DNA of 64,000 nucleotides from Oasisia sp. SBJ-2009 (lineage: Eukaryota; Annelida; Polychaeta; Sabellida; Siboglinidae): contig OZ024865.1 in NCBI GenBank assembly GCA_964017155.1, forward strand, positions 45,102,696 through 45,166,695, written 5' to 3'. This document shows positions 1-57,930 of this stretch, in pieces (position 1 is the first letter of the stretch; every line of letters starts with the position of its first letter). Below the pieces are notes generated by a model, which saw only the letters and a list, made by a program, of their open reading frames with translations, was not told where the DNA came from and did no database searches. A program made the translations under genes and the position numbers.

Positions 1-380
1 GACGGCAAGCACCCTGGATGTAACCACCCTATGGTCGGTGTAGGGTAAAATGTCATGAAAGAAATGACTACAGACCATAACGTTGTGGACAAAATAGCTA
101 GATAACAGTCAGTTAATATAATATTGCCGTATACTGGAAACAACTAGACGTTCGACAAGGCTACTATATGCATGAGTACCCATACTACTAAAAAGGTTGG
201 ATATTTGTGTACGGGTAATATTCGAGCAGTAATTTCAGGAATGGTGGAAGCCTTAATAAGTGGATATACTGTTCCACTGAACAGGTCTACTAACGAGTAA
301 ATTGTAAAGCATTTGAGATAGTCTTGGTGGCGGTATAGTGTATTATATAATAACTTATAAAAATCTTTTTGTTTTTAAAT
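1..380. other. Outer end of left palindrome arm, no gene seen
   Basis: AT-rich sequence that mirrors about 57294-57671. No exon with module 1 or a signal peptide is visible here; if pseudogene F ever had them they lie beyond the window. Confidence 0.6.
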
Positions 381-1054
381 GAGCACGCAGGGATCGCTGC
401 AGCTACACCCGAAACGTCTACTCTTACTACTCGAGCTACTTCTCCGGTCGCTACTACTACCAGTGTAACCGTGGATTAATGTACTACCGCTCGTGTCGAT
501 TTAACCATTCGTACTACCCGGGACTCGGCCGCTGCGGTTCGAGTACAATCCATATGTATTCAAAAACAATATTAATCATAGAACACAAGGTCTCACATAC
601 TGAAACCGTTTGTCGTTAGACTGATTTATTGACCATGTTCCTTAAAATATTTGCGTAACATATTTGAGTTCAGACTACCAATTATATTCTGATTACAACG
701 CTTGTGTTAATTACTTGGTGATATCTCTTCGTATCTATTTCGTTTTATTTGCAGCAGATAAAGTAACGTTCTTATTAATCGACAAATGTGTTATTGTTAT
801 ATGCACAATTGCGATTAGGATTCATACGCATATTGTATTCCGCAGGTTGCAGAGAGACTTACTGTTAGAGGTACAGCGGCTGGCAGGCGACCGTTTGCAA
901 CGTATGTGGAAGCTATGTCTACTGCAGATATGGACGTCCCATTCGCTACAGGAGATGCCCCTGGAACAGAGGTCACTACGACTGTCATCATCGTCGTTGT
1001 GTCAACAGGTGCAACGGCTGCTGTGGCGAACGACAAATGTGTAGCAAACGGTGA
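381..1054 (+). pseudogene. Pseudogene F: last two coding exons of the Cys/Tyr-rich secreted protein family
   Basis: Two exon-like blocks match the family: 381-536 (156 nt, module 2) and 846 onward (module 3). Module 2 is open and keeps YYYQCNRG and PGLGRCG, but its usual TTTCAG acceptor is replaced by bases ending AAT, and the first module cysteine has become Arg (CGC). Module 3 begins after CCGCAG but has TAG at 866-868 where the intact copies have GAG (Glu), and the normal TAA at 1034-1036 is CAA, so the frame would run on to TGA at 1052-1054. Exons with the signal peptide and module 1 would lie before base 1 and cannot be seen. Module 2 wording (TRNVYSYYSSYFSG) places it in the E-like subfamily. 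The mirror copy is pseudogene G, which shares the TAG and the lost acceptor. The intron 537-845 shows nothing else. Confidence 0.78.
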
Positions 1055-1230
1055 CTAGATAATATCCCTCATTAGTTGGTTCATCTGATTATCGTTCTGA
1101 TCGGTATTATTCTTGCAGACAATTGAGTTAACATTTGATATTATTATCACCATATTCCAAATGTACACAAACATATTCCTTCGTGTCAAATTAGATGAAT
1201 AAATGTAAATGTGACATTTAACGGAAGAGA

Positions 1231-2500
1231 TTTTGATCTCCTACAAAGCAACCACAGGATTGTATGAAGGAGGACATCTGAACACAACACATAGCGTACC
1301 CATTATACATGCGGGGTAAATAGAAATAATACGTGATCTTCGACGATACATAAAACTTCAAACCAATTAGCTATTGGAAGCAGCAAAAACGGCAGGCATA
1401 GATTATGATTCACTTGAATGAAGTACTCTGATTCTAAAAAAACAACTACAAAAACAGTCGTGTATCGACTTCGTGATGTGTCGTGATTTAACATTTTTTA
1501 CGTCGGCGTCACTCCGCGGACGAGCAGCATGATGTTTGCAAGTCACCCAAAGGGTCATTTTTTTATCAGAAACCAACAGACAACAAAAAACGAGTGCATG
1601 CTGGTCAGACAAAGTTCAGCTCAACAAAAACATGTAAAACCATGCGTTATAGTTAACGGCAGAACGAGTGTGTTGCGTGTTTGAATATGTTTAACTGTTT
1701 TTGTCTGTTTCGTCTGACATTTCTAACGTTGGCGGTTTGCCTACGTAAACGTTTGATTGGTGTAATGCACTGTTACCTGACTTGCTAATGTAGTGAAACA
1801 CCTACAGAGTGGTTTGTTGCGGCACAGTTTGAAGTACAAAAAGTGTAGCCTCGACATATATTCACGCATCGGATTCACGTATAAAAAAATTCAGAATACA
1901 CGTCGTCCAATAAAATATGATGAATTCTGACAGCTCGCTCTCACGCAAAACATTCACGTATACATATATAGATATACATATATACAGCCTACCCGCTGTC
2001 GAACACAACTACACACATTCATATAGTACGCTCGCGTACACAACTCTTACCTTCGGCTGCACATAGGGGAAGGAGGGGCATGTCCGCACACTTAGATGAA
2101 ACACGCTTTAGATAATGCACTATGTGTGCTAAGAGGGAGATAGTTAGCATTCAAAATGAGCAATCATATTATTTCATTGTTAGTTTGTTAGAAATCGCAT
2201 ATCCCATCAGATATATTTACATATATGGGTAAATGTAGAGGCATACCTTTGTGCGGACATGCACCAAGGTACGGGGCATAGCAGCGCTTATGCCCCAGGA
2301 ATGGCAAAGCAACAGCTGGTCTCACATAGCACACTATTAACTGCAATACTAATATGTGTAGGCTTCATGCACGTGAATTACTTTAAGACAAACTTACAAG
2401 AAACACAAGAGAACACAAATCAACGGTTTCAAATGTTCATATGTAAGTCCACGTCATTTGATATCTTGGTTTCTTTTGTCTGTGAGCAATGATCAATTAA
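1231..2500 (+). repeat. R1 repeat, copy 1
   Basis: Begins near the motif GATCTCCTACAAAGCAACC and ends near TCAATTAAGCTTTATTTA. Other copies are at about 4295-5700 (+), 15490-16840 (+) and 55190-56430 (-), with parts at 3425-4060 and 9408-9780. All hold an internal foldback element flanked by GGGGCATGTCCGCACA. No conserved reading frame survives in all copies, and no transposase or RT was recognised. Unclassified dispersed repeat tied to this locus. Confidence 0.75.
2078..2266. repeat. Foldback element in R1 (GGGGCATGTCCGCACA ends)
   Basis: The left end GGGGCATGTCCGCACA is answered about 190 bp later by TTTGTGCGGACATGCACC, an inverted match. Equivalent elements sit at about 5249-5445, 9414-9608, 16420-16570 and (inverted) 55383-55567. 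It looks like a small non-autonomous inverted-repeat element; no coding capacity. Confidence 0.6.
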
Positions 2501-2509
2501 GCTTTATTT

Positions 2510-7250: not shown

Positions 7251-7458
7251 TGTTAACAATAAACAATAAATTAACAGTTTTATAAATATTTCGATTTGAA
7301 ACATGACACATATCAGTTTTGTTGCTGTTCCCATGACTTGTTGTCGGAACTGTACATGTCAATATACAACACGTCCATCTTGTATTAAATGATGCATCGA
7401 CGTTTAGTAATAGACAATTGTGATCAGTCTTCCAAAACCCATTTACGTAAAACACATA

Positions 7459-7604
7459 ATTTATCAAACACTTTGCGCCACATGACCACTGATGTAAAAT
7501 ATATCATTCGTAAAACACAGAGCATGTAACATAATAATGTTACATGTTCTGTGTTTTACGAATGATATGTTTTAGTGGTCATTTGGCGTAGAGTGTTTGA
7601 TAAA
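7459..7604. repeat. Small foldback, arms about 70 bp
   Basis: Bases from TTTATCAAACACTTTGCGCC to CATGTAACAT are followed after a few bases by their near-exact reverse complement ending GTGTTTGATAAA. A second small palindrome (TACGGTTATATATAC and its complement) follows at 7606-7639. The mirror region in the right arm (about 53430-53515) carries only one half of the larger foldback. Confidence 0.85.
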
Positions 7605-8044
7605 TTACGGTTATATATACATTATATATGTAACCGTAGTAATAAATCCATCATTAATGTTTGTGATTAATCATATAACTACTGCAAGCTGCAGTGGCTG
7701 TCAATAGCACAACTAAGATCAATGACAACAATTATATCTCCCATTGTGTAGGCCAGCACCAGACAACTATACCGGTGCGCTCGAGTGAACACAGTCAGTC
7801 GCGTGTCTTAAGTGCATAATGTCAGTGGGTGACAGCTCACTCCAGTGACTGCTTCAACAGTGTGCAACTTGCTGTGTCGGAAATATAATAGTGGATCAGT
7901 CAAACATTGAAAAGTCCTCTAGAATGTTTCTATCGGTATTGTTTTTTTAATAACGGGCATCAATGCTAGTTGGGATGAGGAAAATTAATAGGGTGGATGA
8001 CACGATCAGTTTTGAATTTAAAAGTCATTTGAAAGATCACGTTT

Positions 8045-8990
8045 CTTAAGCGGTTTGAGAAAAAGCGAACTATTGATATAATAGATCGTTCACTGAGTAA
8101 TCCGTTGACATGTAGTCAATCAAAGCCGGCATTAAGACAGACAGTTTGTGTTTTTGTGTTTTGGTTCTCTGGCGAGCGTCGGTTAGTCATAAAACAAACC
8201 ATACTAGCTCATGGTGTAGGGTAATCAGTCTATTAAAAAGTAATGTGTAAAATGCGATTGTAATAACATACATTTTGTTGCAGTGTTAGCTGTCTAATAC
8301 TTCACAGATACGAGCCGCTGAAAACATTGACCATTATATTGAGACACACACGCACGCACCTATTCCTCAATTTGTCACTTACCCGTATGTTTTCTTTTCT
8401 CAAGATAATTCAAATATATGACATACTTTTTCTAGCTTTGCTTGGACCGCTGCAACCTTTTCTGGGCCTGCTGGAAAGTATCGAAGTTTTTGCACCGATT
8501 CTACCTGCTGTATGTACGCGTGAGTTGTATAGTTATCTGCTATTCATCTTATAATATACGTGTCTTACTTGTTATGTATCTTCTGTGTACCACAGTTCCT
8601 TGTATGTCTAGCTTTCAATGGTTTCTATCTGATTGATGTTGGAGTATATTAGTGTGTTATTTTCTACCATCACCTTTCGAGTCAATTTATTCACCTTCTC
8701 GTATGTTAGCGCATATTGCTTTGTCGTCGTCGAAGCGAAGATGACTGAGATATACTCCATCTATCAAGAAGCCTCTAATTTTCCAGGTAACAAATACGTT
8801 GGTAAATATACTCAAATATCGCTTATTACGCAACAATTATTTACATTATGTGTGTATGTTTTATGTATTCATGTGAGTCTGCATATATATCGTTACGCGT
8901 GATTGTGTGCGTGCTGTTTGGTAAGATTGTGTTTGTGTGTACAATATGTTTTTAATAAGATACGTGGGATTTTGTTTGTGGGAATATGTT
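8045..8990 (+). repeat. R4 repeat, copy 1
   Basis: Begins with GGTTTGAGAAAAAGCGAACT and matches 63130-64000 in the same orientation; a third, partial copy is at about 62500-62760. A 75-residue frame at 8327-8554 is not preserved in the other copies, so no gene is called. Confidence 0.75.
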
Positions 8991-8999
8991 AGATTTCAG

Positions 9000-9001
<2 letters not shown>

Positions 9002-9051
<50 letters not shown>
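9002..9051. repeat. (TA)n microsatellite
   Basis: About 50 uninterrupted bases of TA at the end of R4. Confidence 0.95.
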
Positions 9052-9054
<3 letters not shown>

Positions 9055-10360
9055 ATAGTTACGATATATGTCATAGTTAACTTTTCAACAAAAATATACC
9101 CTGCAATATTCACGTTTTACACACTTCAGTAACCGACATCACTGAGTGCGAAGCTATGTTTTATGACGTACCGACCTATGCACAAACATAAAAACAAACA
9201 TTCAAGAACATGAGGTGTTCATCATGTCGTCTTTGCATGTCTACGTCCATACGATAAAGAATTGGTTATGAAACGATGTGACATAGTGCAGTCCTAAACC
9301 ACGACAACAAACTTGTACGAATGATATGGAACACTTAATTTTTATGACATCACGCTGGCTAAATTGAACAAAAATGCCAGATTGTAATTTCATAGAATCC
9401 AGTAGGGGAGGTAGGGGCATGTCCGCACACATAAGGTGATACACGCTATAGACAATGCACTGTGTGTGCTAAGAGGGTGATATTTAGCATTCAGAATGAG
9501 CAGTCATATTACTTTGTTGTTAGTTAGTTAAGAAATCCCATATCCCATCAGATATGTCAATATTTGGTCAAATATAGAGGCATAGCTTTGTGCGAACATG
9601 CCCCAAGGTAAGGGGCATAGCCGCACACTGTGTGCGGTTATGCCCCAGGAATGGCGAAGTAACAGCTGGTCTCACAGAGTTGAATATTAACTGCAGTAAT
9701 AATATGTATTGGTACGTGTAGGCTACAGGCACGTGCCTTACGTTTAAAAAACTTACAAGAAACACCAGAGAACACAAATCAAAGGTTTGAAGTATTCAAA
9801 TATTAGTAAAGTTGAGAAAATAGTGGCCTTAAATCATAGTCCACGTTTATTCCTCTTTAAGCGTCAAAGCAAACAAAAACATGGATTTGTAACGGGTAAA
9901 GTCAAAGTTTGCAACCCAGCTACTCTGATGCCTTCTAGCTAAAAACAGCATATGTGGCTTCGTACCGCGCAAAGTCAAATTCAAAACTCGGTTTGTCGGG
10001 CGTGCGAGCATGTCTTTGTATGGACTAACGTATACGGGCAATGTTCTATATTATAGATTATACATCATTTGTCATCTTGTTGAACAATTAAGCTTTATTT
10101 ATTCAATGGACCTAATGATATACAACATGGGAAATGTGAGGCCAACACGATATAGCCTATCGCACATTGATGAAGCAATAAAAATATATAAAAGTATGAT
10201 AACTTAAAAAGTATATATTATACTATCTCACATCAACGTTTCCTGTAATATGTGTGGTAAGCAACTGACGTATCTAAATATGTATCTAAGTAGACTATGC
10301 AATGTTATAGGCACCGATGCATGACATACGTCTGCACGGCGGGTGGGGCATGACCGCACA
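9052..10360. other. Non-coding stretch with R1 foldback and R2 fragment
   Basis: Bases 9414-9608 are a foldback element of the R1 type. Just after, around 9610-9650, GGGGCATAGCCGCACA is followed by TGTGCGGTTATGCCCC, a near-perfect hairpin. Bases 10085-10320 match the start of R2 and stop where the signal-exon relic would begin. The rest shows nothing recognisable. Confidence 0.6.
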
Positions 10361-10386
10361 GGACTGTATCAGTATACATGCAAGTA

Positions 10387-10469
10387 GCTGATTGTACGAT
10401 AGGCTTTTTGTTGTACTTGGATGCTTATCATTTACCATAATACTGTATGTCTTTCAAGGTACAATCAGC
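10387..10469. repeat. 83-bp element with 11-bp inverted ends, copy 1
   Basis: Starts GCTGATTGTAC and ends GTACAATCAGC, exact inverted ends. A near-identical copy is at 23282-23364, also preceded by TGTATCAGTATACATGCAAG. MITE-like in shape; no target duplication was identified. Confidence 0.6.
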
Positions 10470-12800
10470 AGAGCGCACACCACAACGCAGAGGCTAACAA
10501 GATGGCTGAACAAAACCTAGAGAAGGCCACGGACATGCAGCCAAAACCGTGAGACGACGACACACATAACGGAACGCGTCTGTAATTAAGATCAAAGCAG
10601 ACAGACACGGCATATTCACACATGCAGACGTGCACGAAAGCATGACAATGCATGCGAGACAAAGGAGACCACCGCATGTTCCGAAACAGAGCAGACATGG
10701 TACATATGCACTGAGCAAGTCGCACCATATCGCGCGCAGATACAAGTTGAATAAGCAAATGATGCCACACCACCCAATGTCCACGCACACGCAAACACCC
10801 AAGGAAACGTCATTACAGGAAAATTCCCATCGGCACAAACACCACGTAAACACACATGATTATAACGACAAATTAACAAGTGTTGTGTGCACGTATGTAT
10901 ATGTTGTGTAACCGCATCATGATAATCAAAACTAAGAAGCGCCACGTAACAATTTTATGAAAAGGGTTCACAGGGATAGACACACATAAGTGTTGCACTT
11001 CATGGCTACTCCTCTTCAAAACATAGTTCTGAATAGTACTTCATGCGGCTTACGAGTAGTAATCGGATGGCATGCTTTTGAATAATGTTGCATGTTTTGA
11101 AATAAAATGAATGAAAAAGAATTGAATTGTAAAATAAGCAAACACACATAAGATGTGACATCATATCAAGAACCCAAAGATGGTAGATATTGGTCAGTAA
11201 TAGACACTGCCAAACCGTAACAAACAACTAAACGAGATGGAAGTGTCCATGGTCATCAATCATGTTAAAACAAAGCACGCACCAAAATACGTAGAACAAA
11301 GCCGGAAGCACATAATACCTCACACTTTCTCAGGCGAGAGAAAGACATATAAACACAGGAAAAAGACACCCAATAACATGCGCCGAAACAAGAAGGCCAT
11401 GGAAGATGAGAACAGTGTTGGAAAACAAATACCTACCATGCGTGGACACGGATCACGTGGACACGGATCATTAGAGCAGACGATGGCACATCGTAACATA
11501 CGTCCCAGATAAGGACAGCAATCCAAAGTGATTATATCCTCCAGCACATGCGTCACAACAAATGAATAAGACACATAAACACGATCCACCCAGAACAGGC
11601 AAGCAGAATATAGAAATGGGGCAACTGCGTAGAAAAGAGCAGACCGCATCAAGCGCCCAAACACGTCAAACCGGGATAGACAAAATCCGCGGTCGGACGA
11701 CATCCTGCGCGTAGAAAGTGTGGGCATGGCTTATACATAATAGGCCGAGTCCGAAAATAGCAACCACCCAAAACCAAGTGGCCCAGAGTCGGATAACCCC
11801 ATGTGCCTGACAATAAGAGCCGCCCAAACAAATCGGACATGCATCAAAGTAATCACGTCAACCACAACGGGCGCCCAAACTAAGTGAACACCGTTCAAAA
11901 ACAAGCAATGCGAACACAGGCCGAACGATGTGAACACGCGTCCAATCAAATGTGACACGCACACCGGCGCGGAAGTCGGCCGGCACCGGATAAAAAACGT
12001 GAACGGAGTGTGAAGTGGAATCTGGCGGTCAATATTCTTCCCGCCAGGTAGAGCAACTGTGTAATACGTAAGCAAAACAAACACAGCTGAAACAGACGAC
12101 GCTTCGCAAACAACTGGCATGTATGTATTGGTCAATATACATGACGCCAGGGAGTCTCGCTTAACCGACTGTCGGGCGGCTGCAGAACTACGCCGAGAAG
12201 ACATTCTGGCGACTTTGCCGGCCTGTAAAATTGATCCGTGTGAGGTTAAGCCATGCTGCCATGTCATGGATACTGTTTAATCCAGCTGAATACATAACAG
12301 AAACAACCGGACATTTTAAATTTTATTTTCGTGGTAGTATAAGTTTTACGTTTTGAATAGTTTTAAAATACAGCAATAACTGCTAAAGAGTGTCGTTATT
12401 CTATTAGTTATGTGAAAAAACGGCCTGGGAAGCAATCAGGGTAACTACCCTAATCTGGTAGAAGGTCGCTTTGGCGGTTACACTTGCAGCCCATAATTTC
12501 CCAGGCAGAGTTGAGAGGTGACAATTCCGCCACTTCACCTAGCCTGGGTGAACGAGGATAGGCACCAGATAGACATATGTGGATCACGCCGGCAAAGAAC
12601 GCACAGGTGAAAAAGACATCCTGCAATACACTTGGCACTAGGCCGAACCGCCCGTGTATGACGCAGGCAAAACACACACACAGCTGAAACAGACGACGAC
12701 TCGCAGGTACCGCCAACCCACTTGGCGCCAGTAGTAACACCGAGGAAACACGGCGGCAAGTAACGCACAGCTGAAACAGACGACATCTCTCTGTGTTTTT
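10470..12800. other. GC-richer unclassified insert
   Basis: Composition changes clearly from the AT-rich surroundings and the text is rich in ACAC/GCGC words. The motif CACAGCTGAAACAGACGAC, the core of the 81-bp satellite, already appears singly near 12080, 12678 and 12768. Many open frames exist because of composition, none with a recognisable domain. Nothing firm can be assigned. Confidence 0.5.
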
Positions 12801-12960
12801 TTTTTTTTTTTTTTTTAACTAATGTAGATATTTCATGTCATGTTTTAACGAGTTTTAACTTTGGGTATCTTTCTATGATTTCTTGTAACAGCGCCTTCGA
12901 ACAAGGTAACTTGGATTAATGGTGCTATATAAATGCTTATATTATTATTGTTATTATTAA
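12790..12960 (+). mobile_element. SINE/LINE-like 3' tail after a poly-T run
   Basis: A run of about 22 T is followed by about 150 bp ending GTGCTATATAAATGCTTATA and a TTATTATTATT tail, the usual look of retroposon 3' ends in animals. Only the tail is visible and the family is not identified. Confidence 0.4.
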
Positions 12961-13925
12961 ATTAAGGCCAATATACTTGTCGCCAGGTAGGGCCGTGAGG
13001 TAAATCACGCACAGCTGAAACAGACAACACCTCTGTTATCCTAGCATATTACGGCCATATACTTGGCGCCAGTCAATGAGGTAAATCACGCACAGCTGAA
13101 ACAGACGACACCTCTGTTATCCTAGCATATTACGGCCATATACGTGGCGCCAGTCAATGAAGTAAATCACGCACAGCTGAAACAGACGACACCTCTGTTA
13201 TCCTAGCATATTACGGCCATATACTTGACGCCGGGCAATGAGGTAAAACACGCACAGCTGAAACAGACGACACCTCTGTTATCCTAGCATATTACGGCCG
13301 TATACATGGCGCCAGGCAATGAGGTAAATCACGCACAGCTGAAACAGACGACACCTCTGTTATCCTAGCATATTATGGCCATATACTTGACGCCGGGCAA
13401 TGAGGTAAAACACGCACAGCTGAAACAGACGACACCTCTGTTATCCTAGCATATTACGGCCATATACTTGGCGCCAAGCAATGAGGTAAATCACGCACAG
13501 CTGAAACAGACGACACCTCTGTTATCCTAGCATATTACGGCCATATACTTGGCGCCAGGCAATGAGGTAAATCACGCACAGCTGAAACAGACGACACCTC
13601 TGTTAACCTAGCATGTGACGGCCATATACATGGCGCCAGGCAATGAGGTAAATCACGCACAGCTGAAACAGACGACACCTCTGTTTTCCTAGCATATTAC
13701 GGCCATATACATGGCGCCAGGCAATGAGGTAAATCACGCACAGCTGAAACAGACGACACCTCTGTTATCCTAGCATATTACGGCCATATACATGGCGCCA
13801 GGCAATGAGGTAAATCACGCACAGCTGAAAAAGATGACACCTCTGTTATCCTAGCATATTACGGCCATAAACATGGCGTCAGGCAATGAGGTAAATCACG
13901 CACAGCCGAAACAGACGACACGTCT
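12961..13925 (+). repeat. Satellite array, 81-bp monomer, about 12 copies
   Basis: The word ACGGCCATAT recurs at 13051, 13132, 13213 and 13294, so the period is 81 bp. Each monomer reads through TTGGCGCCAGGCAATGAGG, AATCACGCACAGCTGAAACA and CCTCTGTTATCCTAGC. The first and last copies are most diverged, as expected for array edges. Direct tandem copies with no separate spacers, so not CRISPR-like. Lone ancestral-looking units lie upstream at 12.0-12.8 kb. Confidence 0.95.
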
Positions 13926-14290
13926 GAAAGTACATCGGCGTACGTCGCGCGTAAAAATATAAACCAAATGCATATAAATGAAAAAGTGCAAACGAGACAT
14001 CCTGCTAATCCCGGTGTGTAAAATAAAAACGAAGTGAACAGGACACTGAAAAGCGCAAGAGAGAGGGTCCAAAATAGCGCCCACTAAACGGAGTGGGAGA
14101 ATGCGCGAGGCAGAGAAACGGCCCTTGTTCAGCCGTAGGCAGGGACCGAAGCAGTGTAACTGACCTCCGCTTGATGACGCCCAAGGGGCATGTAGTGGAA
14201 GCAAGGGAAAAAAGGTGTGTGTGTGTGTGTGTGTACACGGACGTGTCCAGGAGTTAACATGGGCGTACTAACGTATACACAGGTATATAC

Positions 14291-14357
<67 letters not shown>

Positions 14358-14439
14358 ACATACATACACATACACAAACATATATATATATACATATACA
14401 CACACATACACACACGCCTGCACAGACACAGCGAAACAT

Positions 14440-14485
<46 letters not shown>

Positions 14486-15234
14486 ATATACATAGACACA
14501 CATATGCATACACACATGTAGACCCCGAGTCTATACTCAGCAGAGCCAGCAGCACAGCGTGGGACAACCGCATATACATCCGGGGCGCCCCCGGACGACG
14601 CAGCCTGCGGCTGTAGACTTTACCACCCGCCAGGAGTAATTAAACCGTATCTCTAAGGCAGGGTCCCCGCGGCGAACTTCAAACGGTAATTAACCCGTCG
14701 TCAAATAGCGCTAACCAGCCGGCGCCTGGACAGCGTCGGACACCCCAGTGTCCTCGACCGATAGGACCCAACCGTACACAGCCCGACATTCAAAAGCTGC
14801 GATCGTGCCCAGGACAAGACAAAAATAGTTGTGTAAACAAAACGTAAACTTTCAAAGGGACGTGAGGATATGTTAGCGTCACCTAGATTACATCTCACCG
14901 GCACTGAGGCAACAAGCAATCAACACCTCTTTTACCGATGCAACCGTAGCTAAAGTGACTCGCACGAAGAAGAAACGATGGCAGCAAACACCCACCGGTG
15001 TGTCAACTCACGCGAAAATCATTATACAACGAGCAAAGCATACTACTACAGCTGGATTGTGTCGCAAAAAAGAAATAAACATACGTGACGTGGAGGGAGT
15101 TCCGCAGAGCAAACGTCCAATTAACAGCACATATCTCAGATCAACCACGAAATGTATGTGATGATCGCAGAGTGGATTCCCGCAGAGTTACAACACCGCG
15201 CTGTATAGTCAATGAAGACAGCGGGATGAAAATG
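13926..15234. other. Unclassified insert with microsatellites
   Basis: Continues the GC-richer insert. Holds (GT)n at 14216-14233, (TA)n at about 14282-14354 and 14443-14470, with CA-rich spacers. No gene recognised. Confidence 0.6.
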
Positions 15235-15480
15235 TCGTTAAAACCAACAGAGGTACCGACAAACCCTGTTGCCAAGTCAACGAATACAGCGGAACTGCCG
15301 GTTCGAGGTCACCGGCTAGGTGGCTGTCACACTGCCCTCTCCTGCCCGGGGCTGGGCGACGGGAAACGTTGACCTTAGGTGGCCTCCATTCGTTTCGTGT
15401 GCCTAGCTTCATTCAGGGCTTGCCTCAAAATTATATTGCATCCCCCTGGACACAATACAGTTTTTGCGATCTCACAAAAT
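15235..15480 (+). repeat. Dispersed repeat shared with 22490-22740 (opposite strand)
   Basis: Matches the reverse complement of 22490-22740, including AACGAATACAGCGGAACTGC and ATTATATTGCATCCC. It is the right edge of the GC-richer insert here and the left edge of the similar insert at 22 kb, suggesting both inserts share a source. Confidence 0.7.
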
Positions 15481-15489
15481 GTATGATTA

Positions 15490-42518: not shown

Positions 42519-42519
42519 C

Positions 42520-44147
42520 AACTTCGTTTGTATAAATCATTACTTCTTATAAGCAATTATACACACATTGACACAAAGGAGTGTCGGTGAAAATACGTCA
42601 TATCATAAACATGACACATTTTCTTACTGCTGTATTATTTTGTTGGTGGAATCACGCCACTATCCACCGTGCCTCAAGCTCCTACATTATTAAATACCAT
42701 GATGCATATGTCAGTTGATGAAAAAAACACTTTTAAATTTTAAAAGTAATAACGTTACACGCAGTGGGATGAATAAGTGTCGTGCGTCATTCAGTCGAAT
42801 ATCTTATCGATGCCAGTCAGGCTCACGTAGCTGCATACACGCACATTCAAAAACAATCCACCGTGTAAAAACAAGGATCTGATGTTACTTTAATAAATAC
42901 GTGAAGCTTACACGTCTACTGCTATATGAACTGGCTTTTCATATAGTTGCAGACATATATTTTTGAAAACTAAATTAAATACCATGATGCATATGTCAGT
43001 TGATGAAAAACACTTTTAAATTTTTAAGTAATAACGTTACACGCAGTGGGATGAATACATGTCGTGCATTATTCTGACGAATATCTTGTCGCTGGCAGTC
43101 AGTCTCAACCAGCCACATACACGCATATTGAAAATATCTCACTACAGTCTACAATATACGCAGATAAATAACGATAATATCGAGGTGTTTTCAGATTAAG
43201 AAATGGTTCGGGAACCTTCAGTCTACAAATAATGATGGTCTTCGTAGGCTCTAGACACATGGCAATTGTACCTGTTGGTTAGTCATCCATGCATGCATTG
43301 TCCCTCTATATATCCAGATAAATGTTCATACAGTTGAATTCATTAGAGCAATGAGTGAAGGACCTTGTCCATGCCCGTATTTTAATAAGGCAGTACGATA
43401 AACCTTTATTGATGGTCTTGTGTTGTGTGTAGTATCTGCAGTTCCGCGACGTACTAAGTGTAATATTGGTGTATTATATGTGAAGAAACCTGAATGTATA
43501 AACCTGAATATATCACAAATAAAGTCATGACAGACAGAAAAAATCATTGCATACGTAGTGTAAGCTTCACTCATATAATGTAGTCGTTTTTCTATAAAAA
43601 CAAAACAGCATTTTATCAGTTGCTTGGTGCAAAGCAATTCATTTAATATTAGACATTGTCGGCACTACACATATGAGCACCGTAACGATAGCAAGTCAGC
43701 TAAGGGTACATTAAAAACAACAAAAAATGAATACAAAATGTACGCTAGACAGGTAAATATCGGATCTAGAAAAAACTCTTACACATTTACATTAGTTACG
43801 ATGGCAAGTCAGGAATCTGTTCAAAAAAATTGTAAAAAGTGACGGTAAATGGGATACTCAAACGAAGATCACCCCTGGGAAATAAAATTATGTCGGATAC
43901 TCAGGCGAAAATTAACCTTTCACTCAAACACCAATATACACCTTTACGATGTGAGATAGTCAGGCAACGGCACCTCGTAAACTAGTGGTGAAAACATGTT
44001 TGATGTCGTATACCCATGCTAAGTTGTTGGGTACATTATTTCCAATAATTCCAATCGAAAGAAAGTGGAGATGTTCCAGTAATTTATATGTGTATATTCC
44101 ATACGTCATTGCATGTCATACTACGATTAAGGATGCAACATCACCAT

Positions 44148-44200
<53 letters not shown>

Positions 44201-44930
44201 ATGTGCGTATAATGGTCTGTGCACATTTTACATCAACATAATTTCAAATAACAAGATAGCTAAATTCACAAAATAACTTGAACCAATAAATTGTATCACT
44301 AGATTCGAAGAAGAACTATGATGTTATCAACGTGGTGGTGTAGCCCTCGCGATATGCCTGTATTTGTGCCTCTTCAACGGTACGCAATTCAAAAGGTTCG
44401 TCAAGTGGCATCCATGTAAACAACAAATGCGATGTACACGCGTGTGTCCAAATTTGATTATGATGCTCACACGACGGTATCTCCATCGGAATGCATATCT
44501 CATTAAAACTGTTATAATAATTCAAATAATACGGTCTCAGCTATCATAATAACATGGTAAGGAATATAATAAAAATGTTAACCGTTGACTGACTTGTACA
44601 ACTGTATGGCACAAAAACAGAAACTCGTTTGCATAAGAGTGAGGTTCGCATTGGCCGTAGCTCTTTGGCGCAGTGGCCAGACATTCGGACTCTCGAATGT
44701 GGAACACGAGGTGGAATTATGTGCTGCTGTGTCAATCCATGGGCACATGTTTCTTTCTACATTCCTCTATTACACTCACCTATATGTCTGGGTATTTGAC
44801 AGTGATGGATGTGTGTATAGAAATATATTTCTCTTGTTAATTGTTGCGTGGCTTATTGTTTTCAAGAGAAATAGAGACAGTGTTCTATTTAACACATTGG
44901 CCATGGAGTAAAGTGTAAAACTAGTTGACC
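42520..44930. other. Left half of the divergent C-D intergenic region
   Basis: Mirrors 31.57-33.65 kb. Bases 42697-42760 are locally repeated at 42967-43030. (TA)n at 44149-44198. SINE-like relic at 44653-44812. No gene. Confidence 0.6.
44653..44812 (+). mobile_element. Decayed tRNA-type SINE-like sequence (right arm)
   Basis: Mirror of 31670-31830 with the same GGCGCAGTGGCCAGAC box-A-like word and the GGGCACATGTTTCTTTC body motif. Confidence 0.4.
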
Positions 44931-44940
44931 ATTCATTACT

Positions 44941-46640
<1,700 letters not shown>

Positions 46641-46646
46641 AAGTTG

Positions 46647-46723
46647 TATAAATACAGATACAGTTCCAGATGCAGTACCACTTGCAACAGTCGAATAACT
46701 GTGGGTCACACATAGGCTGCAAG
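46647..46723 (+). promoter_or_regulatory. Gene D promoter: TATA box and non-coding first exon
   Basis: TATAAATA at 46647-46654; the non-coding exon ends GGCTGCAAG|GTAAGGG at 46723; acceptor GAATTTCAG at 46923, 15 bases before the start codon. Confidence 0.7.
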
Positions 46724-46938
46724 GTAAGGGAAACAGGGAAACAACATTGATAAATGTGATACTTGTATTATAACTGCTAATATGTTGTATACATATGATG
46801 ACGCGTGCTAGACTCATCACGATGTTGCATTGGAGTGTGTGGTGGGATGTAACAATTGCGTACATTTTAGGACGATTATCACAGGTAGCCGCATTTAAAA
46901 AACAAACGATATTTGAATTTCAGAAAACACCAGGCGAT

Positions 46939-48736
<1,798 letters not shown>

Positions 48737-49151
48737 GCAAATAGCAAAAGGTAACGTGAGATATGCCTTGTACTGAGACAGCTTACCATATTGTTAGTAT
48801 GATTACTGTTCAACCTACAGAAAATACACGAAGTAATTGGTATTGTGGCATGTGTATAACAATTATAATAATGTGTAGTCATTTATGTCGCGATGGATAC
48901 CGACATTTTAAATTACTCTATATTAATAACATTCTCCTGTCAATGAAACAATTAGTCTGAGTGGCCGTTTGGTTTTCTGTGCAGTTTCGTATACCAATCT
49001 TCGGCGGGCGCTTATATTAAATTATATTCCAGTTCTCTATTACGTCGAATTTTGTTGTCGCATCTCTGTAAATAGACCGCCGTATATCACTATATTCATG
49101 TATTTATGAAAATACAATCATACATTACAGGAATTGTGCTTTCGATTGTAG

Positions 49152-49289
49152 TGGCGTTCACTGATCGACCTGTTATTCTACGAAGTGACAAGGAACACGC
49201 CGTTCAGAGCGGGTAGAAGTTTCTCAGAATTGACATCAACATTTTCTTTTGTAACCGGGTAGATTTTGTGAAAATATCGCTACAATAAA
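49152..49289 (+). other. Gene D 3' UTR terminal exon and polyadenylation signal
   Basis: Donor GCAAAAG|GTAACG after 48750, acceptor TCGATTGTAG|TGGCGTTCAC at 49152, AATAAA at 49284-49289. Confidence 0.5.
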
Positions 49290-49481
49290 GCTATTGATCT
49301 GAAATTTATCCGTGGCTTCTTGTTTTTGTATGACTGATATTGCATGAGAGGTATTTAACGCTTTTTCGAGATACACGCTTGAAATATAACACCGGCATTC
49401 ATAGCAATGCATGTTATAAATAGTCGACAAAATATTGTTAATTAATGATAATGCACATCCTTTGTCCATTGATATGCCACT

Positions 49482-49594
<113 letters not shown>

Positions 49595-49599
49595 TGATC

Positions 49600-50930
49600 A
49601 TACACCACACTGGCATAACATATCGATGGATTCATCATACGTTAAATATATTATCATTACCATCGCGCCATGAACATTCTGCAATACCGTTTATATTGTT
49701 AATAATGTTGAAAAACGGGAACAAGTTATTAATCGGCACGCAAACAACGAAACGCATCGGCAAAGACATTGTCTGTGTGACAAGTTTATTATCATATATC
49801 AGTGACATTTCGACAGAATAGAGAACACATCAATGTGTTCCGTCACGTAGGAATGTTGAGCGGTTCTGGTCACTACATGGTTTATGGGTATTATTTATAG
49901 GAAACACACCTGATCTGTTATAATGATTATATTAATGTACCAAGATTGTATAATAAATATGCTCGCTATTTTGTCTCTGTCCACACATATGCATAGTGAC
50001 TTGCGTAACCAGTTAATAGTTTGCAGAAATGTCACATTTACCTTATACAGTCTTTAATACATGACCGTGATATAGCTTCGTATGATCAGGCAACCTTTCC
50101 TCTCCACTTAGCAAGTTATTTTTTATATACGTTCAGCTAAACAGTGTAATTTACAGGTACACATTCACGTTACAATAATAATGTATTGTATAATGAAACA
50201 TAAAATACGGTTTTCTCAAAACACGATTTTTCATTTGAAATAGTTTTGAAAACCTGGTCGTTTCACTATAATGTTCCCACATGCATTATATATGCCCCTG
50301 AGTGATGTGTATAGCGTTCTATGTAGAGCGATTGTGGAATAGCATGTCATATCCAGCTGCACACGAGTATATTGACCAGCTGGTTTGCATCAGTCCACCC
50401 CACCACATCCGCAGGCGTACGTTCAATTGAGGTTCTTTTCTTCGGACCGTTCTGAACTTTGACTTGCATTTACGGATGACCATATCTACACATGCATCAG
50501 GAATAGGAGGTGGTCTTGTCTAGAGAGCTTTCGAGCAGTCTGACTCTGTCGTCTATGTAGTGGTGTCGGTGGGAGAAGGGATGACTATATACATGCACCT
50601 CGTCTGCCGGCAGCCATATCTGTGCCTGGCAGTTGGTGTGTGCTGTGTGAACTTCCATGACCTCTCTGATTGGGGTAACATCTCCCTATCAAGCTATCCC
50701 TTTCTGAAGAGTTGAACAAGAGTCCATATCAAACTATGGCTTACCAAAAGGTAGAAGTCTAGCATTGACGACGGTTGGCAACGTATGTGTGCCATATAGG
50801 TGACACACAAATGTATACGAACTTATCTTATTTTTCACCCGTTACGGTTACGTATCAATTGAAAGTTTACGACAGACAGTTCATCTTATAATTAAAAAGT
50901 ATGTGTTTCTGTGCGAAAATATGATAAAGT
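49600..50930. other. Gene D 3' flank, mirrored in left arm
   Basis: Matches 24990-26560 and 21560-22000 inverted, and 2535-3300 directly. No gene recognised. Confidence 0.6.
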
Positions 50931-50933
50931 AGA

Positions 50934-51163
50934 TAATAATAATAATAATACACTTTATTTAGACACTAAAATCCAAAGAACAAACTCTGTTCGGTAGTGT
51001 AGACAACATTAAGACATCCTAAGAAATAAATAAAATAAAAGTACAAGTAGCACATATGAGTACGTTTGTCTAAATCAGTGTTGTACAGAACTACAAGAGA
51101 AACTAATATTAAACAGAGATGGCATTGTTGTAGTCTATATCATATGTCAATGTAGTCAAGAAA

Positions 51164-51252
<89 letters not shown>

Positions 51253-52460
51253 AAGTAGCAGAATAAATAAATATATAATAATATACATAGTACTTAATTA
51301 TTAACAATTGACTAAAGCAATATAATAGTTGTGTCAATTGTAATGATAAACACTCAAATATATGTTAATTTGTAAACTATTAATTAATAAATAATTAAAA
51401 TGACATGCTGGTTGAGCTAAGTAAGAGTGAATAAGTAAATAAATAACACTGTAAAAGGGTGAAAGGTGTAGACAAACTAGACATTAAAAGCAATCTTGAA
51501 ATAATAAGTCTTAAGGTATGTTTTAAACTTGTTCATGCACACTATATAACGCAAGTCCTCAGGTAGTGCGTTCCAAAGAGTTGGTCCTGCACGAGAGAAT
51601 GAGCGGCGTCCATAACGTTCGAGGTTGGGCCGAGGAATCACTAGCAACGCGCGGTCTGCAGAACGCAAGGCGCGACGTGGCACGTACGGTGTGATCAGCG
51701 AGGCAATGTACGCCGGCGTCCGCTCGTGTAGGGCGCGAAACACAATGACGAGTATTTTGTACTCGATGCGATACTTCACGGGCAACCAGTGGAGTTGTTG
51801 CAATGCGGCCGTCATGCTTCGCCGGTCATAGCGCCTGAGCACAACTCTGGCCGCCGAGCACTGGACCATCTCCAGGCGGTGCAAGAGGCGGTCGGAGATG
51901 CCATACAGGACTGCGTTTCCGTAGTCTAGCCGTGATGTGACGAGGGCGAGGACGAGATTCTTGCATGCTTCAGTTGTCAGACTTGTTCGTATTTTGGCAA
52001 TACGAAACAAATTTGATTATGCAGCACGGCAGACGTTCGATATTTGCGCTGACATGTCAAGTCGGCTGTCAAGTAAAACGCCTATATCACGAACAGTTAG
52101 CGAGAGTGATATAGATGACCCGCGTACACAGAAGGTGAACAACGAAGAAGGCGAGTGGACAGCGGAGGAACGAAAAACGATTGCTTCCGTCTTCGCCTCG
52201 TTCAGAAGAAGATGGTTGTAATCCAGCCACTGTCTAATATCACTCACGCATTCCTCGATGTTTCGTTGTGCATCAGCGTGACTCGATGGTGGGCACTCAG
52301 CGTACAATTGAATGTCGTCTGCGTATATGTGATAGCGGATCTGGTAGCGATCGAAAATTTCCGTAATAGGTAAAAGGTAAATGTTAAATAGTAGTTGACC
52401 TAGGACCGGGCCCTGTGGAATCTTTACTATACTATCCTACTAAGTATGAACTAAACCAGA
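50934..52460 (-). mobile_element. CR1/L2-like LINE, 3' part, dead (right arm)
   Basis: Minus strand shows PQGPVLGQLLF, the catalytic YADDIQLY, the DYNHLLLN block (GAG here, where the left copy has a stop), then TSRLDYGNAVLYG, LHWLPVKYRIEYKILV and GPTLWNALPE. A frameshift separates the RT part from the C-terminal part near 52.0 kb. The 3' tail is the ATT-type repeat at 50934-50952; a (TA)n of about 75 bases sits at 51170-51245. Same insertion as the left-arm element. Confidence 0.85.
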
Positions 52461-52699
52461 TGCCAAATAATAGAAAACAAAATTATTTTTGTCTGAAGTT
52501 TACCTTCAATATGACTTTCAATTTTAAAATCGGAGACGTCGTCGCGCACAACTTTGTTGTTATCCTACGAACGATCAATGTAGTAAGAATGTTGTGGATT
52601 TGAACATTATCAGTCGTCAGAACATCAAAGAGTTGGCCAGTTGTTATGCAGAATGTCATTCTGCGGTTGCTAACTCATTTCTTAAGTAATTTTCCCACA

Positions 52700-54365
52700 G
52701 GTTGGCTAGTTTTTTTGCCTCGATATCATTTTTACGAACGAGGTTATGTATACTAGTATGTGCACGAGTATACTGTATTGTATGGTTTTAAAAACAGTTT
52801 AACCTGGCAATAATATATATGCAAATAATGTTTACATACAATAAAACACATTTCGAGATAATCACATTTATGTGTTGTATTATCCTATGCATCTCTATGT
52901 CGTGACAACGTGTATCACCTTATATCTCAGCCAAATATTGTCCTGGATGAACAATCGTTACTGCTGTGTAGATATATACACGTGTATATTTTAATTCGTC
53001 AAGGCATCCACCCTATTCATTGTCCTCATCCTATGGGTAACTAATCTAGCATGGATGCCCGCAATTAAAAAAAATGCCAATAAAAACATTCTAGAGGAAT
53101 TGTCAATGTGTGACTGGTCCACTATTATATTTCCGACACAGCAAGTTCCACAGTGTTGAAGCAGCCACGGGAATGAGCTGTCACTTATGACACGCGATTG
53201 ACTGGGTTCACTCGAGCGCAGCGGTATAGTTGTCTGATGCCGGCCTACACAATGGGAGATATAATTGTTGTGCGCGGCCGGCCAGGACTTGTTGCGTGAG
53301 TAGAAGAATATTCATTTATCTTAGTAGTGCTATTGGCAGCCAGTGCAGCTTGCAGTAGTTAGAGGAGTAATCACAAACATTAACGATATATTTATTACTA
53401 CGGTTACATATATAATGTATATATAACCGTAATTTATCAAACACTGCGCCACATGACCACTAAAACATATCATTCGTAAAACACAGAGCATGTAACATTA
53501 TTATGTTACATGCTATTGACATGTACAGTTCCGACAACAAGTCATGGGAACAGCAACAAAACTGATATGTGTCATGTTTCAAATCGAAATATTTATAAAA
53601 CTGTTAATGTATTGTTTATTGTTAACAGTATTGTCAGGAATGCAATATCATCACATCAAGAAATAATTGACACACATGGAAACATAAACATAGGAAGTTG
53701 CTCAGAACATGAAACAGGTCAGCGTCAATGTTTCTTGATGTTCCCATGACTTTTTGCCGGTATTGTATTGTATGGTTTTCAAAACAGGTTAACCTGGCAA
53801 TAGTGGATAAGCAAACAACTTGTGCATACAAGAAAAACATATTTCGAGATAATCCAATTTTGGTGTTGCAATATCCTATGCATCTTTGTTTAAGTTGAAA
53901 GTTTAACACCTTATATCTCATCCAATAAGTGCCCTGGTCGTAAAATCGCTACTGCTATGTAGAGATCGACTCCCTGAGAATTTATTTCATCATGAAGATA
54001 AAAACCTAAATTAAAACTCAGTTGAGTTCGTGACCTTCGTATAATGGCCATTACATTCAAACCTGATTGGAGCATTCACCTAGTCATGTTTCTCTTACTT
54101 TCCTCATGATTGATTTAGCATGGCTGCCCTTAATTAAAAAAAAAAAATGCCTATAAAACAATTCTAGATGACTTTGCAATGTTTGACTGGTCCACTATTA
54201 GATTGCCGACACGGTGTGACAGCAAGTTGCACAGTGTTGAAGCAGCCACGTGAGTGAGTTGTCATCCAACGGCGTCTTGCAATTAGACACCCGGTTGACT
54301 GTGTTCACTCGAGCGCAGCGGTATCGTTTTTCTGATGCCGGCCTACACAATGGGAGAGATATTGC
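52700..54365 (-). repeat. R3 repeats of the right arm
   Basis: Units at 52700-53265 and 53630-54365, mirrors of 18850-19500 and 6525-7250. A half foldback lies at 53430-53515. Confidence 0.65.
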
Positions 54366-54479
54366 TGTGCGCGTCCAGCGATGACTTCTTGCGTGAGTAG
54401 AACAATATTCATTTAACTTAGTTATTGCTATTGGCAGCTACTGCAGCTTGCAGTAGTTTGGAGGATTCATCACAAACAT

Positions 54480-55195
54480 TAACGATATTATTATTAATCC
54501 GGCTACACACATGTAACATGTAAATGTGTGTTTTACGAATGACATGTTTACATCATTGGGCATATGGAGCTGAATGCTTGATAAGTTATGTGTTTTAGAT
54601 AAATGGGTTTCGGATGACTGATCACAATTTTCTATTACTAAACGTCGATGCATAATTTAAGACCACATGGAGGTTGACATTACAAATAACAAAATAATAC
54701 AATTGTGTGAATACCTTGATGTGTAATGTTTGTGATGAGTCCTCGGACTCCCGTGTGTGTTGCACCATAGGTCACACCTGAAGGCGTTGTCTGCCCGGTA
54801 AGTGACACGTTTCATGGAATATTCTTCTCTTCTTGTTGTCATATACTTTGTAGATAAGTTGGTTGGTTTCATACTTCATTGAATCTGTTAGTTTATTGGG
54901 GACATTATACAATACTTCGCATTTTAGTAAGATGGCCATCACATGCTTTTGCTTATTTCATAGTAAGACAGAAGTTATGGCAAAATAAATCATCGCATTG
55001 CTGGAGCTTACCACAAATATTATAGACAACTTTGCTGTGAGATAATATATGATGATTATTATATGATTAATTAATATTATCATACTTTTATTTTATATCA
55101 TTCAATGCTTCAACAATGTGCAATAGGCTATAACGTATTGGCCTCACATTTATCATATTGTGTATCATTACGTCCGTTAAATAAATAAAGCTTAA
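54480..55195 (-). repeat. R2 repeat of the right arm
   Basis: Reverse complement of 5695-6360; contains the relic at 54745-54990. Confidence 0.7.
54745..54990 (+). pseudogene. Relic of a gene 5' end (first exon and signal exon)
   Basis: Plus-strand block ending GTTGTCTGCCCG|GTAAGTG at 54797 equals the non-coding first exon of gene E type. ATG at 54977 is followed by GCA AAA and then TAA, so the signal peptide is stopped after MAK; the next codons still read IIALLEL. Mirror of the relic at 5872-6135, which lacks the stop. Confidence 0.6.
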
Positions 55196-56430
55196 TTGAT
55201 CATTGCTCATTGACAAAAATAACGTAACTTTTTTTAAAGTAATTCACGTGCATGTAGCCTACACATACAAATACATATTAGTATTGCAGTTAATAGTGTG
55301 CTCTGTGAGACCAGCTGTTGCTTTGCCATTCCTGGGGCATAAGCGCACACAGTGTGCGGCTATGCCCGGTACCTTGGTGCATGTCCGCACAAAGGTATGC
55401 CTCTACATTTACCCATATATGTAAATATATCTGATGGGATATGCGATTTCTAACAAACTAACAACGAAATAATATGATTGCTCATTCTGAATGCTAACTA
55501 TCACCCTCTTAGCACACATAGTGCATTATCTAAAGCGTGTTTCATCTAAGTGTGCGGACATGCCCCTCCTTCCCCTATGTGCAACCGGAGGTAAGAATTG
55601 TGTGCGCGAGCGTACTATATGAATGTGGGTTGTCGTGTTCGACAGCGGGTAGTATGTAAATATGTATATGTGTATATGTATATGTGACTGTTTTGCGTGA
55701 GAGCGAGCTGTCAGAATTTATCATATGTTATTCGACGACGTGTATTCTGATTTTTGATTTATACGTGAATGCGATGCGTGCATATATGTCGAGGCTACAC
55801 TTGTTGTACTTCAAACTGTGTCGCAACAAACCATTCTGTAGGTGTTTCACTGCAATAGCAAGTCAGGTAACGGTGCAATACACCAATCAAACGTTTACGT
55901 CAGTAAACCGCCAACACACGAACTTTAGAAATGTCAGACGAAACAGACAAAAACAGTTAAACATATTCAAACACGCTACACTCTCGTTTTGCCGTTAACT
56001 ACAACGCATGGTTTTACATGTTTTTGTTGAGCTGAACTTTGTCTGACCAGCATGCACTCGTTTTTTGTTGTCTGTTGGTTTCTGATAAAATGACCCTTTG
56101 GGTGACTTGCAAACATCTCGCTGCTCGTCCGCGGAGTGACGCCGACGTGAAACATGTTAAATCACGACACATCACGAAGTCGATACACGACTGTTTTTGT
56201 AGTTGTTTTTTAGAATCAGAGTACTTCATTGAAGTGAATCATAAACTATACCTGCCGTTTTTGCTGCTTCCAATAGCTAATTGGTTTGAAGTTTTATGTA
56301 TCGTCGAAGATCACGTATTACATCCATTTCTATTTACCCCGCATGTATAATGGGTACGCTATGTGTTGTGTTCAGATGTCCTCCTTCATACAATCCTGTG
56401 GTTGCTTTGTAGGAGATCAAAATACTCTTC
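55190..56430 (-). repeat. R1 repeat of the right arm
   Basis: Reverse complement of 1231-2500 with its foldback element at about 55383-55567. Confidence 0.75.
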
Positions 56431-56617
56431 CGTTGAATGTCACATTTACATGAATTCATCTAATTTCACACGAGGGAATATGCTTGAGTACATTTGGAAT
56501 ATGGTGATTATAATATCAAATGTTAACTCAATTGTCTGCAAGAATAATACCGATCAGAACGATAGTCAGATAAACAAACTAATGAGGGATATCATCTAGC
56601 CACCTTATGCTATATGC

Positions 56618-57293
56618 TTACCGTTCGCCACAGCAGCCGTTGCACCTGTTGACACAACGACGATGATGACAGTCGTAGTGACCTCTGTTCCAGGGGCATC
56701 TCCTGTAGCGAATGGGACGTCCATGTCTGCAGTAGACATAGCTTCCACATACGTTGCAAACGGTCGCCTGCCAGCCGTTGTACCTCTAACAGTAAGTCTC
56801 TCTGCAACCTGCGGAATATAATATGCGTATGAATCCTAATCGCAATTGTGCATATAACAATAACACATTTGTCGATTAATAAGAACGTTACTTTCTCTGC
56901 TGCAAATAAAACGAAATAGATACGAAGAGATATCACCAAGTAATTAACACAAGCGTTGTAATCAGAATATAATTGGTAGTCAGAACTCAAATATGTTACG
57001 CAAATATTTTAAGGAACATGGTCAATAAATCAGTCTAACGACAAACGGTTTCAGTATTAAATCTTGTTAAATCAGTATGTGAGACCTTGTGTTCTATCAT
57101 TATATTGTTTATGAATACATATGGATTGTACTCGAACCGCAGCTGCCGAGTCCCGGGTAGTACGAATGGTTAAATCGACACGAGCGGTAGTACATTAATC
57201 CACGGTTACACTGGTAGTAGTAGCGACCGGAGAAGTAGCTCGAGTAGTAAGAGTAGACGCTTCGGGTGTAGCTGCAGCGATCCCTGCGTGCTC
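56618..57293 (-). pseudogene. Pseudogene G: last two coding exons of the family
   Basis: Mirror of F on the minus strand: 57293-57138 (module 2, acceptor lost in the same way, AATGAG in place of CAGGAG, first Cys replaced by Arg) and 56808-56618 (module 3). The TAG at 56788-56786 is at exactly the same codon as in F. Unlike F it keeps TAA at the normal stop (56620-56618). No module 1 or signal exon is found upstream between 57294 and gene E, so it is truncated. The shared lesions mean the copy was dead before the arms separated, or that conversion spread them. Confidence 0.78.
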
Positions 57294-57649
57294 ATTAAAA
57301 ACAAAAAGATTTTTATAAGTTATTATATAATACACTATACCGCCACCAAGACTATCTCAGATGCTTTACAATTTACTCGCTAGCAGACCTGTTCAGTTGA
57401 ACAGTATATCCACTTATTAAGACTTCCAGCATTCCTGAAATTACTGCTCGAATATTACCCGTACACAAATATCCAACCTTTTTAGTAGTACGGGTACTCA
57501 TGCAAATAGTAGCCTTGTCGAACGTCTAGTTGTTTCCAGTATACGGCAATATTATATTAACTGACTGTTATCTAGCTATTTTGTCCACAACGTTATGGTC
57601 TGTAGTCATTTCTTTCATGACATTTTACCCTACACCGACCTTAGGGTGG
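57294..57649. other. Outer end of right palindrome arm
   Basis: Mirrors 1-380. No exon seen. The match to the window start ends only because the window ends. Confidence 0.6.
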
Positions 57650-57930
57650 TTACATCCAGGGTGCTTGCCGTCCTCGCTGGTTCTGACTTCAGTAAAGCGT
57701 TCGATACAGTTGTGAGGACCGAGATATGGCAGCTACTGAAGAAGTGTGGATGCCCAAAGAAGTTCACAACTACGATCGAAGCTCCACATACCGGAAGGAT
57801 GACGAATGTTAGTGTTGGAAGGGAAGTCTCGGAATCGTTCAGTGTTACAAATGGGGTCAAGCCATGTTGTTAACTGGCCTCCACGCTCTTCTCCATCTTC
57901 TTGTTGGATGTGATACCATTATACAACGGA
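57650..57930 (+). mobile_element. LINE reverse transcriptase fragment, dead
   Basis: Plus frame reads SDFSKAFDTVVRTEIW, then a block ending VTNGVKPCC, a TAA, and in the same frame LASTLFSIFLLD. This matches the RT blocks around D(F/L)xKAFDTV and GVKQGCVLAPTLFSIF of RTE-like or related LINEs, a different type from the CR1/L2-like element. Stops in frame and short length show it is a fossil. It begins just at the last visible base of the palindrome match. Confidence 0.7.

Follow-up and report, generated by a model that had tools for sequence, protein, structure and literature searches.

Genes and mirror symmetry at the locus

The stretch of DNA analysed here (the window) comprises 64,000 nucleotides of the vestimentiferan tubeworm Oasisia sp. 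SBJ-2009, C12:45102696-45166695, where C12 denotes contig OZ024865.1 of assembly GCA_964017155.1. It carries copies of a gene for a small cysteine- and tyrosine-rich protein, laid out as mirror images in two inverted arms around a spacer. Close to the axis on the left lies g2 (33960-35592, + strand), an open four-exon model for a protein of about 203 amino acids, whose translation has a signal-peptide-like start and three Cys/Tyr-rich modules; the exon joins of this model were set by eye and the boundary of exons 1 and 2 is approximate. Its mirror partner g3 (40631-42217, - strand) is open as well and identical to g2 across a 73-amino-acid exon-2 query. Further from the axis, g1 (27357-29399, - strand), a pseudogene with a stop in exon 2 and an exon 3 that is read in two frames, is mirrored by g4 (46939-48733, + strand), which is open and holds a g2-like tract. 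Further out again, a pseudogene fragment at 392-1033 (+ strand; exons 3-4, with a stop in exon 4) faces another with stops at 56621-57303 (- strand). For a wider view 100 kb were fetched on each side and the resulting 264 kb compared with itself, coordinates being given relative to the window, with negative ones to the left of position 1. The open h-type gene at 59715-61384 (- strand) has its mirror partner in a gene at -3667 to -1974. Both intact four-exon copies and pseudogenes are present in the 264 kb; two genes at the left are visible by exon 1 only, and their partners fall in two runs of N.

Most of the intact copies are under purifying selection. The ratio of nonsynonymous to synonymous substitution rates (dN/dS) is 0-0.18 in 28 of 28 h-type pairs and 0.18-0.33 in five of six g-type pairs, the g2-g3 pair giving 1.07 on about 10 changes. 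The symmetry is not confined to the gene family, as a fragment of a long interspersed nuclear element (LINE) at 19645-20783 (+ strand), recognised by an RVT_1 match (E=8.6e-12) in the open reading frame at 19645-20061, has a mirror counterpart at 51477-52436 (- strand), which was read from open reading frames within the block 19206-21013/53003-51247 (91.6%). A weak RVT_1 match (E=0.08, below the cut-off) also occurs at 57565-57873 (+ strand), beside the outer pseudogene of the right arm.

The arms were delimited by comparing the window with itself by BLAST at an E threshold of 1e-5. On the minus strand, the outermost mirror block within the window is 1-2397/57672-55224 (93.6%, 3732 bits) and the innermost 33334-37516/42852-38716 (94.5%, 6536 bits), with ordered blocks in between, and scores of 3732-6536 bits are not attributable to chance. 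The mirror chaining left out overlapping blocks, for example 31325-33489/42974-45138, and the block list used for coverage and divergence was compiled by hand from the self-comparisons of the window and of the 264 kb. The initial annotation had described nearly the whole window as one palindrome in which genes, pseudogenes and a LINE are paired in order. The pairing in order is borne out by the succession of blocks, the gene models and the reverse-transcriptase fragment, and the reverse-complement blocks are real, but the two arms are unequally paired: in-register inverted blocks cover 17923 of 18957 bases (95%) of the right arm (38716-57672, - strand) but, in the left arm (1-37516, + strand), just 18192 of 37516 bases (48%). 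About 19 kb of the left arm are without an in-register partner, chiefly at 2.4-5.7, 7.4-18.7 and 22-25 kb. The largest such segment, 7365-18709, has no in-register partner in the window and includes a second copy (17076-18720) of the stretch at 5.9-7.5 kb; it also contains a tandem array of an 81-bp unit (12961-13926, 11.5 copies, 94% match), around which, at 10-16 kb, GC content is raised and AT skew strong.

Between the arms lies a spacer of about 1.2 kb (37517-38715), in which lies one copy of an interspersed repeat about 1.1 kb long, and the tip of the left arm ends in an (AT)n array (37515-37592) that may mark the junction of an inverted duplication. The palindrome ends proposed initially, 1/57671 and 37512/38729, lie within about 15 bases of the block ends found here. 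The inner one stands as an end of the symmetry; the outer one is the edge of the window and not of the palindrome, because the mirror register (a coordinate sum of about 57.6-57.7 kb) continues to -20098/77768, some 20 kb past the window limits on both sides.

The palindrome is itself embedded in further duplication. Direct repeats are plentiful within the window, and in the 264 kb many further direct and inverted matches overlap the arms, for example 31176-37405 with 88813-95112 in direct orientation; the latter stretch, at 88.8-95.1 kb, carries the central gene region for a third time. The flank to the left is made up of tandem copies at intervals of 21-28 kb, and among the matches listed three tandem stretches at the left are 98.2-98.4% alike (for example -42998 to -32806 with -16420 to -6158). 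The window belongs to a segmental-duplication cluster that extends over at least about 190 kb of C12. In the right flank, at about 108820-116765, there is in addition a long and highly regular tandem array, which among the matches listed is about 97-99% alike at many shifts in 6-base steps.

Divergence and exchange between the copies

From alignments in which dinucleotide runs were masked, the substitution divergence K between the arms is 0.038 for the stretch at the axis, 0.061 for 31-33 kb and 0.09-0.14 around g1 and g4; it is 0.055 for the LINE fragment, and the outer arms have 0.024-0.039. K therefore varies several-fold along the arms (full range 0.024-0.139), which speaks against a single inverted duplication with one clock. 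The arms are composite and call for several duplications or for local homogenisation. In having two reverse-complement arms with the same order around a spacer, the locus matches a large palindrome or inverted duplication; continuous arms of a single age, which would belong to the same picture, were not found, as both the partial pairing of the left arm and the range of K make plain.

Mirror arms in an assembly can also arise when two haplotypes or misplaced contigs are joined head to head. The cluster does abut a run of 200 N at -94699 to -94500, whereas the other N runs in the 264 kb are 1000 to 5000 bases long, and the stretches at the left that are about 98% alike come near the heterozygosity of related tubeworms, 1.59% (PMC13080331) and 1.2% (PMC9921365), and could be haplotypic (here and below, papers are cited from the accessible parts of their text). 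For the palindromes of an Adineta vaga assembly, errors of scaffolding have been suggested (PMC5916493), with the same caution in PMC7953838. The arms, on the other hand, diverge by 2.4-14% and differ by large one-sided segments, the whole range from -61999 to 140500 is free of N and hence of scaffold joins, and further inverted clusters of the family lie elsewhere on C12 and on C13. A haplotype join is unlikely, because the divergence of the arms exceeds the heterozygosity of related tubeworms and no N occurs in or near the palindrome, so the argument from arm divergence made in the initial annotation stands up. As a whole, an artefact of assembly is quite improbable.

Exchange between copies was examined at informative sites, with permutation tests that assume independence of sites. 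The clearest case is a conversion-like tract in g4 (47458-47742, + strand) that matches g2 at 34201-34485, its place in g4 following from the ungapped block 34198-34653/47455-47910. Over the whole alignment g4 is g1-like at 347 sites and g2-like at 176; in the tract it is g2-like at 56 of 56 sites, which none of 2000 permutations reaches. Outside the GT repeat, a microsatellite, the tract is still g2-like at 26 of 26 sites, and the next 170 bp are g1-like by 18 to 1. This is the footprint of a conversion or a double exchange between direct-orientation copies on either side of the axis. Within this tract, g2 in turn sides with g4 against g3 (0/2000 permutations). At a block edge, g3 is g1-like at 24 of 24 sites (0/2000). 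The third copy, g5, showed no significant patch when tested against g2 and g4, and one short patch at the block edge when tested against g2 and g3 (6/2000). Its similarity to g2 is 93-99% for most of the way to about 34.66 kb, except for two windows at the GT repeat where it falls to 72-87%; further on it is mostly 82-93%.

The ampliconic palindromes of sex chromosomes are characterised by near-identical arms that are maintained by arm-to-arm conversion. A likeness to ampliconic regions of animal genomes had been suggested for the locus, together with possible conversion between its arms, and a palindrome of the sex-chromosome type would be kept since exchange between the arms repairs its genes. 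Multi-copy genes do lie in mirrored arms here, K climbs from a low 0.038 near the axis to 0.14 at greater distance, and one conversion-like tract crosses the axis. That tract, however, joins direct and not mirror copies, K drops again in the outer arms, g1 has stayed a pseudogene, and arms that are 87-98% alike by substitutions are far from near-identical, so a likeness to sex-chromosome amplicons is not borne out. Of the informative sites in the outer arms, 141 join the right arm to its mirror copy and 132 to the neighbouring tandem copy, which leaves continuous arm-to-arm conversion there unsupported; the order of these sites is mildly non-random (as few runs in 40 of 5000 shuffles), most clearly at the outer end. 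Of the suggested conversion, exchange across the axis remains, in a single g2/g4 tract, and a palindrome maintained by conversion is a highly improbable account of the locus.

The gene family in the genome and its protein

Copies of the family were mapped in the assembly of 764 Mb (33 sequences), and all genome counts are lower bounds. Exon 2 gave 115 matches and, with one of two overlapping C8 pieces removed, at least 114 loci, 107 of them on C12, 6 on C13 and 1 on C8. For exon 4, 150 of 175 candidates were scored, and 148 of these 150 matches were used; the two set aside were one half of a split C12 exon and the only match on C8, while weak and partial matches were retained. The C12 copies form clusters of very different order. 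By exon 2, the 15 copies at 8.53-8.67 Mb alternate strictly in orientation; the orders are --++ at 17.82-17.86 Mb, -------++++ at 24.90-25.04 Mb and --++-+ at 42.62-42.68 Mb, mixed orders occur at 38.3-38.5, 41.5-41.65 and 42.97-43.34 Mb, one pair of copies lies at 41.0 Mb, and the cluster containing the window extends over 45.02-45.22 Mb. By exon 4, C12:8525317-8675924 holds 18 strictly alternating copies, apparently nine divergent pairs in tandem. On C13, six copies at C13:29846729-29895411 form a symmetric array, ---+++, whose exon-4 mirror sums agree within 0.84 kb; this array is the sole multi-copy cluster found off C12.

Among 100 pairs of exon-2 neighbours within 60 kb, 54 are in opposite and 46 in the same orientation, the opposite ones being divergent in 29 cases (median spacing 6.8 kb) and convergent in 25. 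Exon 4 gives a similar split (68 opposite and 64 same in 132 pairs). Tandemly arrayed genes of vertebrates, which are likewise adjoining duplicates of one family, are parallel in 72-94% of pairs (PMC2547482), in contrast to the 46 of 100 found here; a predominance of parallel neighbours is absent from this family, with binomial probabilities against 0.72 of 4e-8 (exon 2) and 1e-8 (exon 4).

Such a map could also result if tandem copies were later inverted locally and at random, with no palindromic duplication as such involved. About half of the neighbours are opposite, as random orientation predicts, and the strict alternation at 8.53-8.68 Mb resembles tandem copies of a divergent pair, all the more as the exon-4 score classes there differ by strand, the top score being shared by 6 of 9 copies on the - strand and 2 of 9 on the + strand. 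What random inversion accounts for poorly is the symmetry: the nearest relatives compared in the window are mirror partners (g2-g3 96% and g1-g4 87-91% similar) in the order g1 g2 and, across the axis, g2' g1', the mirror pairing also holds for the flanks and the LINE fragment, and the C13 array is symmetric. This alternative is decidedly improbable.

Relatives of the protein were found by single-sequence search (18) and by profile search (31). All of those with names (10 of the 18 and 13 of the 31) are hypothetical proteins from either Ridgeia piscesae or Lamellibrachia satsuma and point to a vestimentiferan host; the remainder are unnamed ENA entries. Searches of Pfam and PDB with the protein gave nothing above the cut-off, and there were no Rfam matches at gathering scores. 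The chitin-binding domain CBM_14 is weakly suggested: six of eight relatives match it at E up to 10 (best E 0.026), while the window protein, with 8.0 bits, and P0001, with 9.4 bits, stay below the cut-off of 22.1 bits. An AlphaFold model built from an 8-sequence alignment of tubeworm relatives had a mean predicted local distance difference test (pLDDT) score of 47.2, too poor for a fold search. Judged from its sequence, the protein is probably secreted, and it may have a role in the extracellular matrix, in tube or mucus. The tube proteome of Paraescarpia includes ChtBD2 proteins (PMC8476170), and these ChtBD2/CBM_14 tube proteins have in common with the present family that they are Cys-rich and expanded in vestimentiferans; they differ from it in that its CBM_14 scores stay below the Pfam cut-off.

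Origin of the cluster and its meaning

The findings are probably best explained by a birth-and-death cluster that was built by tandem and inverted duplication, with exchange and decay afterwards. Units with a gene for a small Cys/Tyr-rich, probably secreted protein, often in divergent pairs, would have been multiplied by tandem duplication, as in the left copies 21-28 kb apart, and inverted duplication of such units would have produced the mirror arms in the window. The inverted step may have been a fold-back or template-switch event that left the spacer of about 1.2 kb and the AT-microsatellite junction. Later exchange between copies would have homogenised some patches, while other copies decayed. 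The repeated inverted duplication of a gene family that the initial annotation proposed agrees with the inverted and alternating clusters elsewhere on C12 and with the symmetric array on C13.

For the inverted step, the third copy offers a point of reference. Within the 264 kb, its flank (95116-96018) scores highest against the spacer, with 545 bits (453 for the next match of the same part), in inverted orientation and adjoining the right-arm homology. From this match, the right arm with the spacer would have come first, and the new junction would lie at the left-arm tip. Fold-back fits the general layout and predicts a single-copy spacer of kilobase size and short inverted homology at the junction; the spacer has a suitable size, but it sits in an interspersed repeat with other copies. 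Human fold-back inverted duplications likewise consist of two inverted arms and a short unduplicated spacer, 766-70,466 bp there (PMC3907307) and about 1,200 bp here; they differ in being large duplications that adjoin terminal deletions, translocations or rings, whereas the present arms measure tens of kilobases, are interstitial and have no readable clean junction homology. At the left tip, which ends at (AT)n, no clear junction homology was read by eye.

Several observations weigh against this explanation or parts of it. The match of the third-copy flank to the spacer is longer but not more similar than those to other copies of the interspersed repeat (70.5% against 69-71%), so that its support for a fold-back step is weak. 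Mirror blocks end at dinucleotide arrays in 12 of 40 cases against 2.17 expected, an excess confounded by the fact that alignments break at such arrays. One cluster of 8 copies, at C12 17.65-17.71 Mb, is all parallel, and about 50% opposite neighbours is also the expectation of random re-orientation. Finally, a small control with the globin genes of the same genome, counted by hand with two C8 pieces 1 kb apart taken as one gene, gave 7 same and 4 opposite of 11; as this does not differ significantly from the family (Fisher p=0.35), the inverted layout cannot be called special to the family within the genome.

A birth-and-death cluster of this kind has partial counterparts in other animals. 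The Sp185/333 immune gene clusters of sea urchins (PMC5103432) share clustered copies in both orientations, segmental duplications, suspected gene conversion and dinucleotide arrays near the genes, the arrays examined here being those at mirror-block ends. Their protein is unrelated, and in the accessible text their segmental duplications are of one orientation with a single known pseudogene, in contrast to the inverted duplications and common pseudogenes of the tubeworm cluster. Palindromic gene blocks in Folsomia candida and Adineta vaga (PMC5490193, PMC7953838, PMC5916493) are further invertebrate examples of inverted gene blocks, and two of the Folsomia palindromes hold a multi-copy gene, as the present cluster does. 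Both species are parthenogens, however, and for Adineta a scaffolding error was suggested, whereas here one gene family repeatedly makes inverted clusters, mostly on one chromosome. A text search of the literature, which covered few subscription papers and in which the protein could not be searched by sequence, found no description of the family or the layout, and term look-ups in the accessible text of PMC8476170, PMC8789280 and PMC9921365 found neither described there. Each ingredient is already known; what is unusual is that one family takes on an inverted layout again and again on one chromosome. The locus is a strongly inverted case of an already known type of gene cluster and not a new kind of structure.

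By analogy with a proposal for rapidly diversifying immune clusters, the chromosome might be seen as a factory for a lineage-specific secreted family, in which new copies arise again and again in the form of inverted pairs and palindromes, a layout favoured as it would promote copy-number change and exchange, possibly in the service of tube, mucus or symbiont contact. This idea is doubtful. What the map itself presents is a large family, with named relatives so far from vestimentiferans only, that grew in an unusually inverted manner and mostly on one chromosome. If long reads confirm the arrangement, about ten clusters of one family, parallel, alternating and palindromic, within one genome would form a natural comparison, which would address when inverted duplications form, persist and exchange sequence. 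They would also draw attention to a large number of uncharacterised and probably secreted proteins of animals that are known for chitin tubes and symbiosis.

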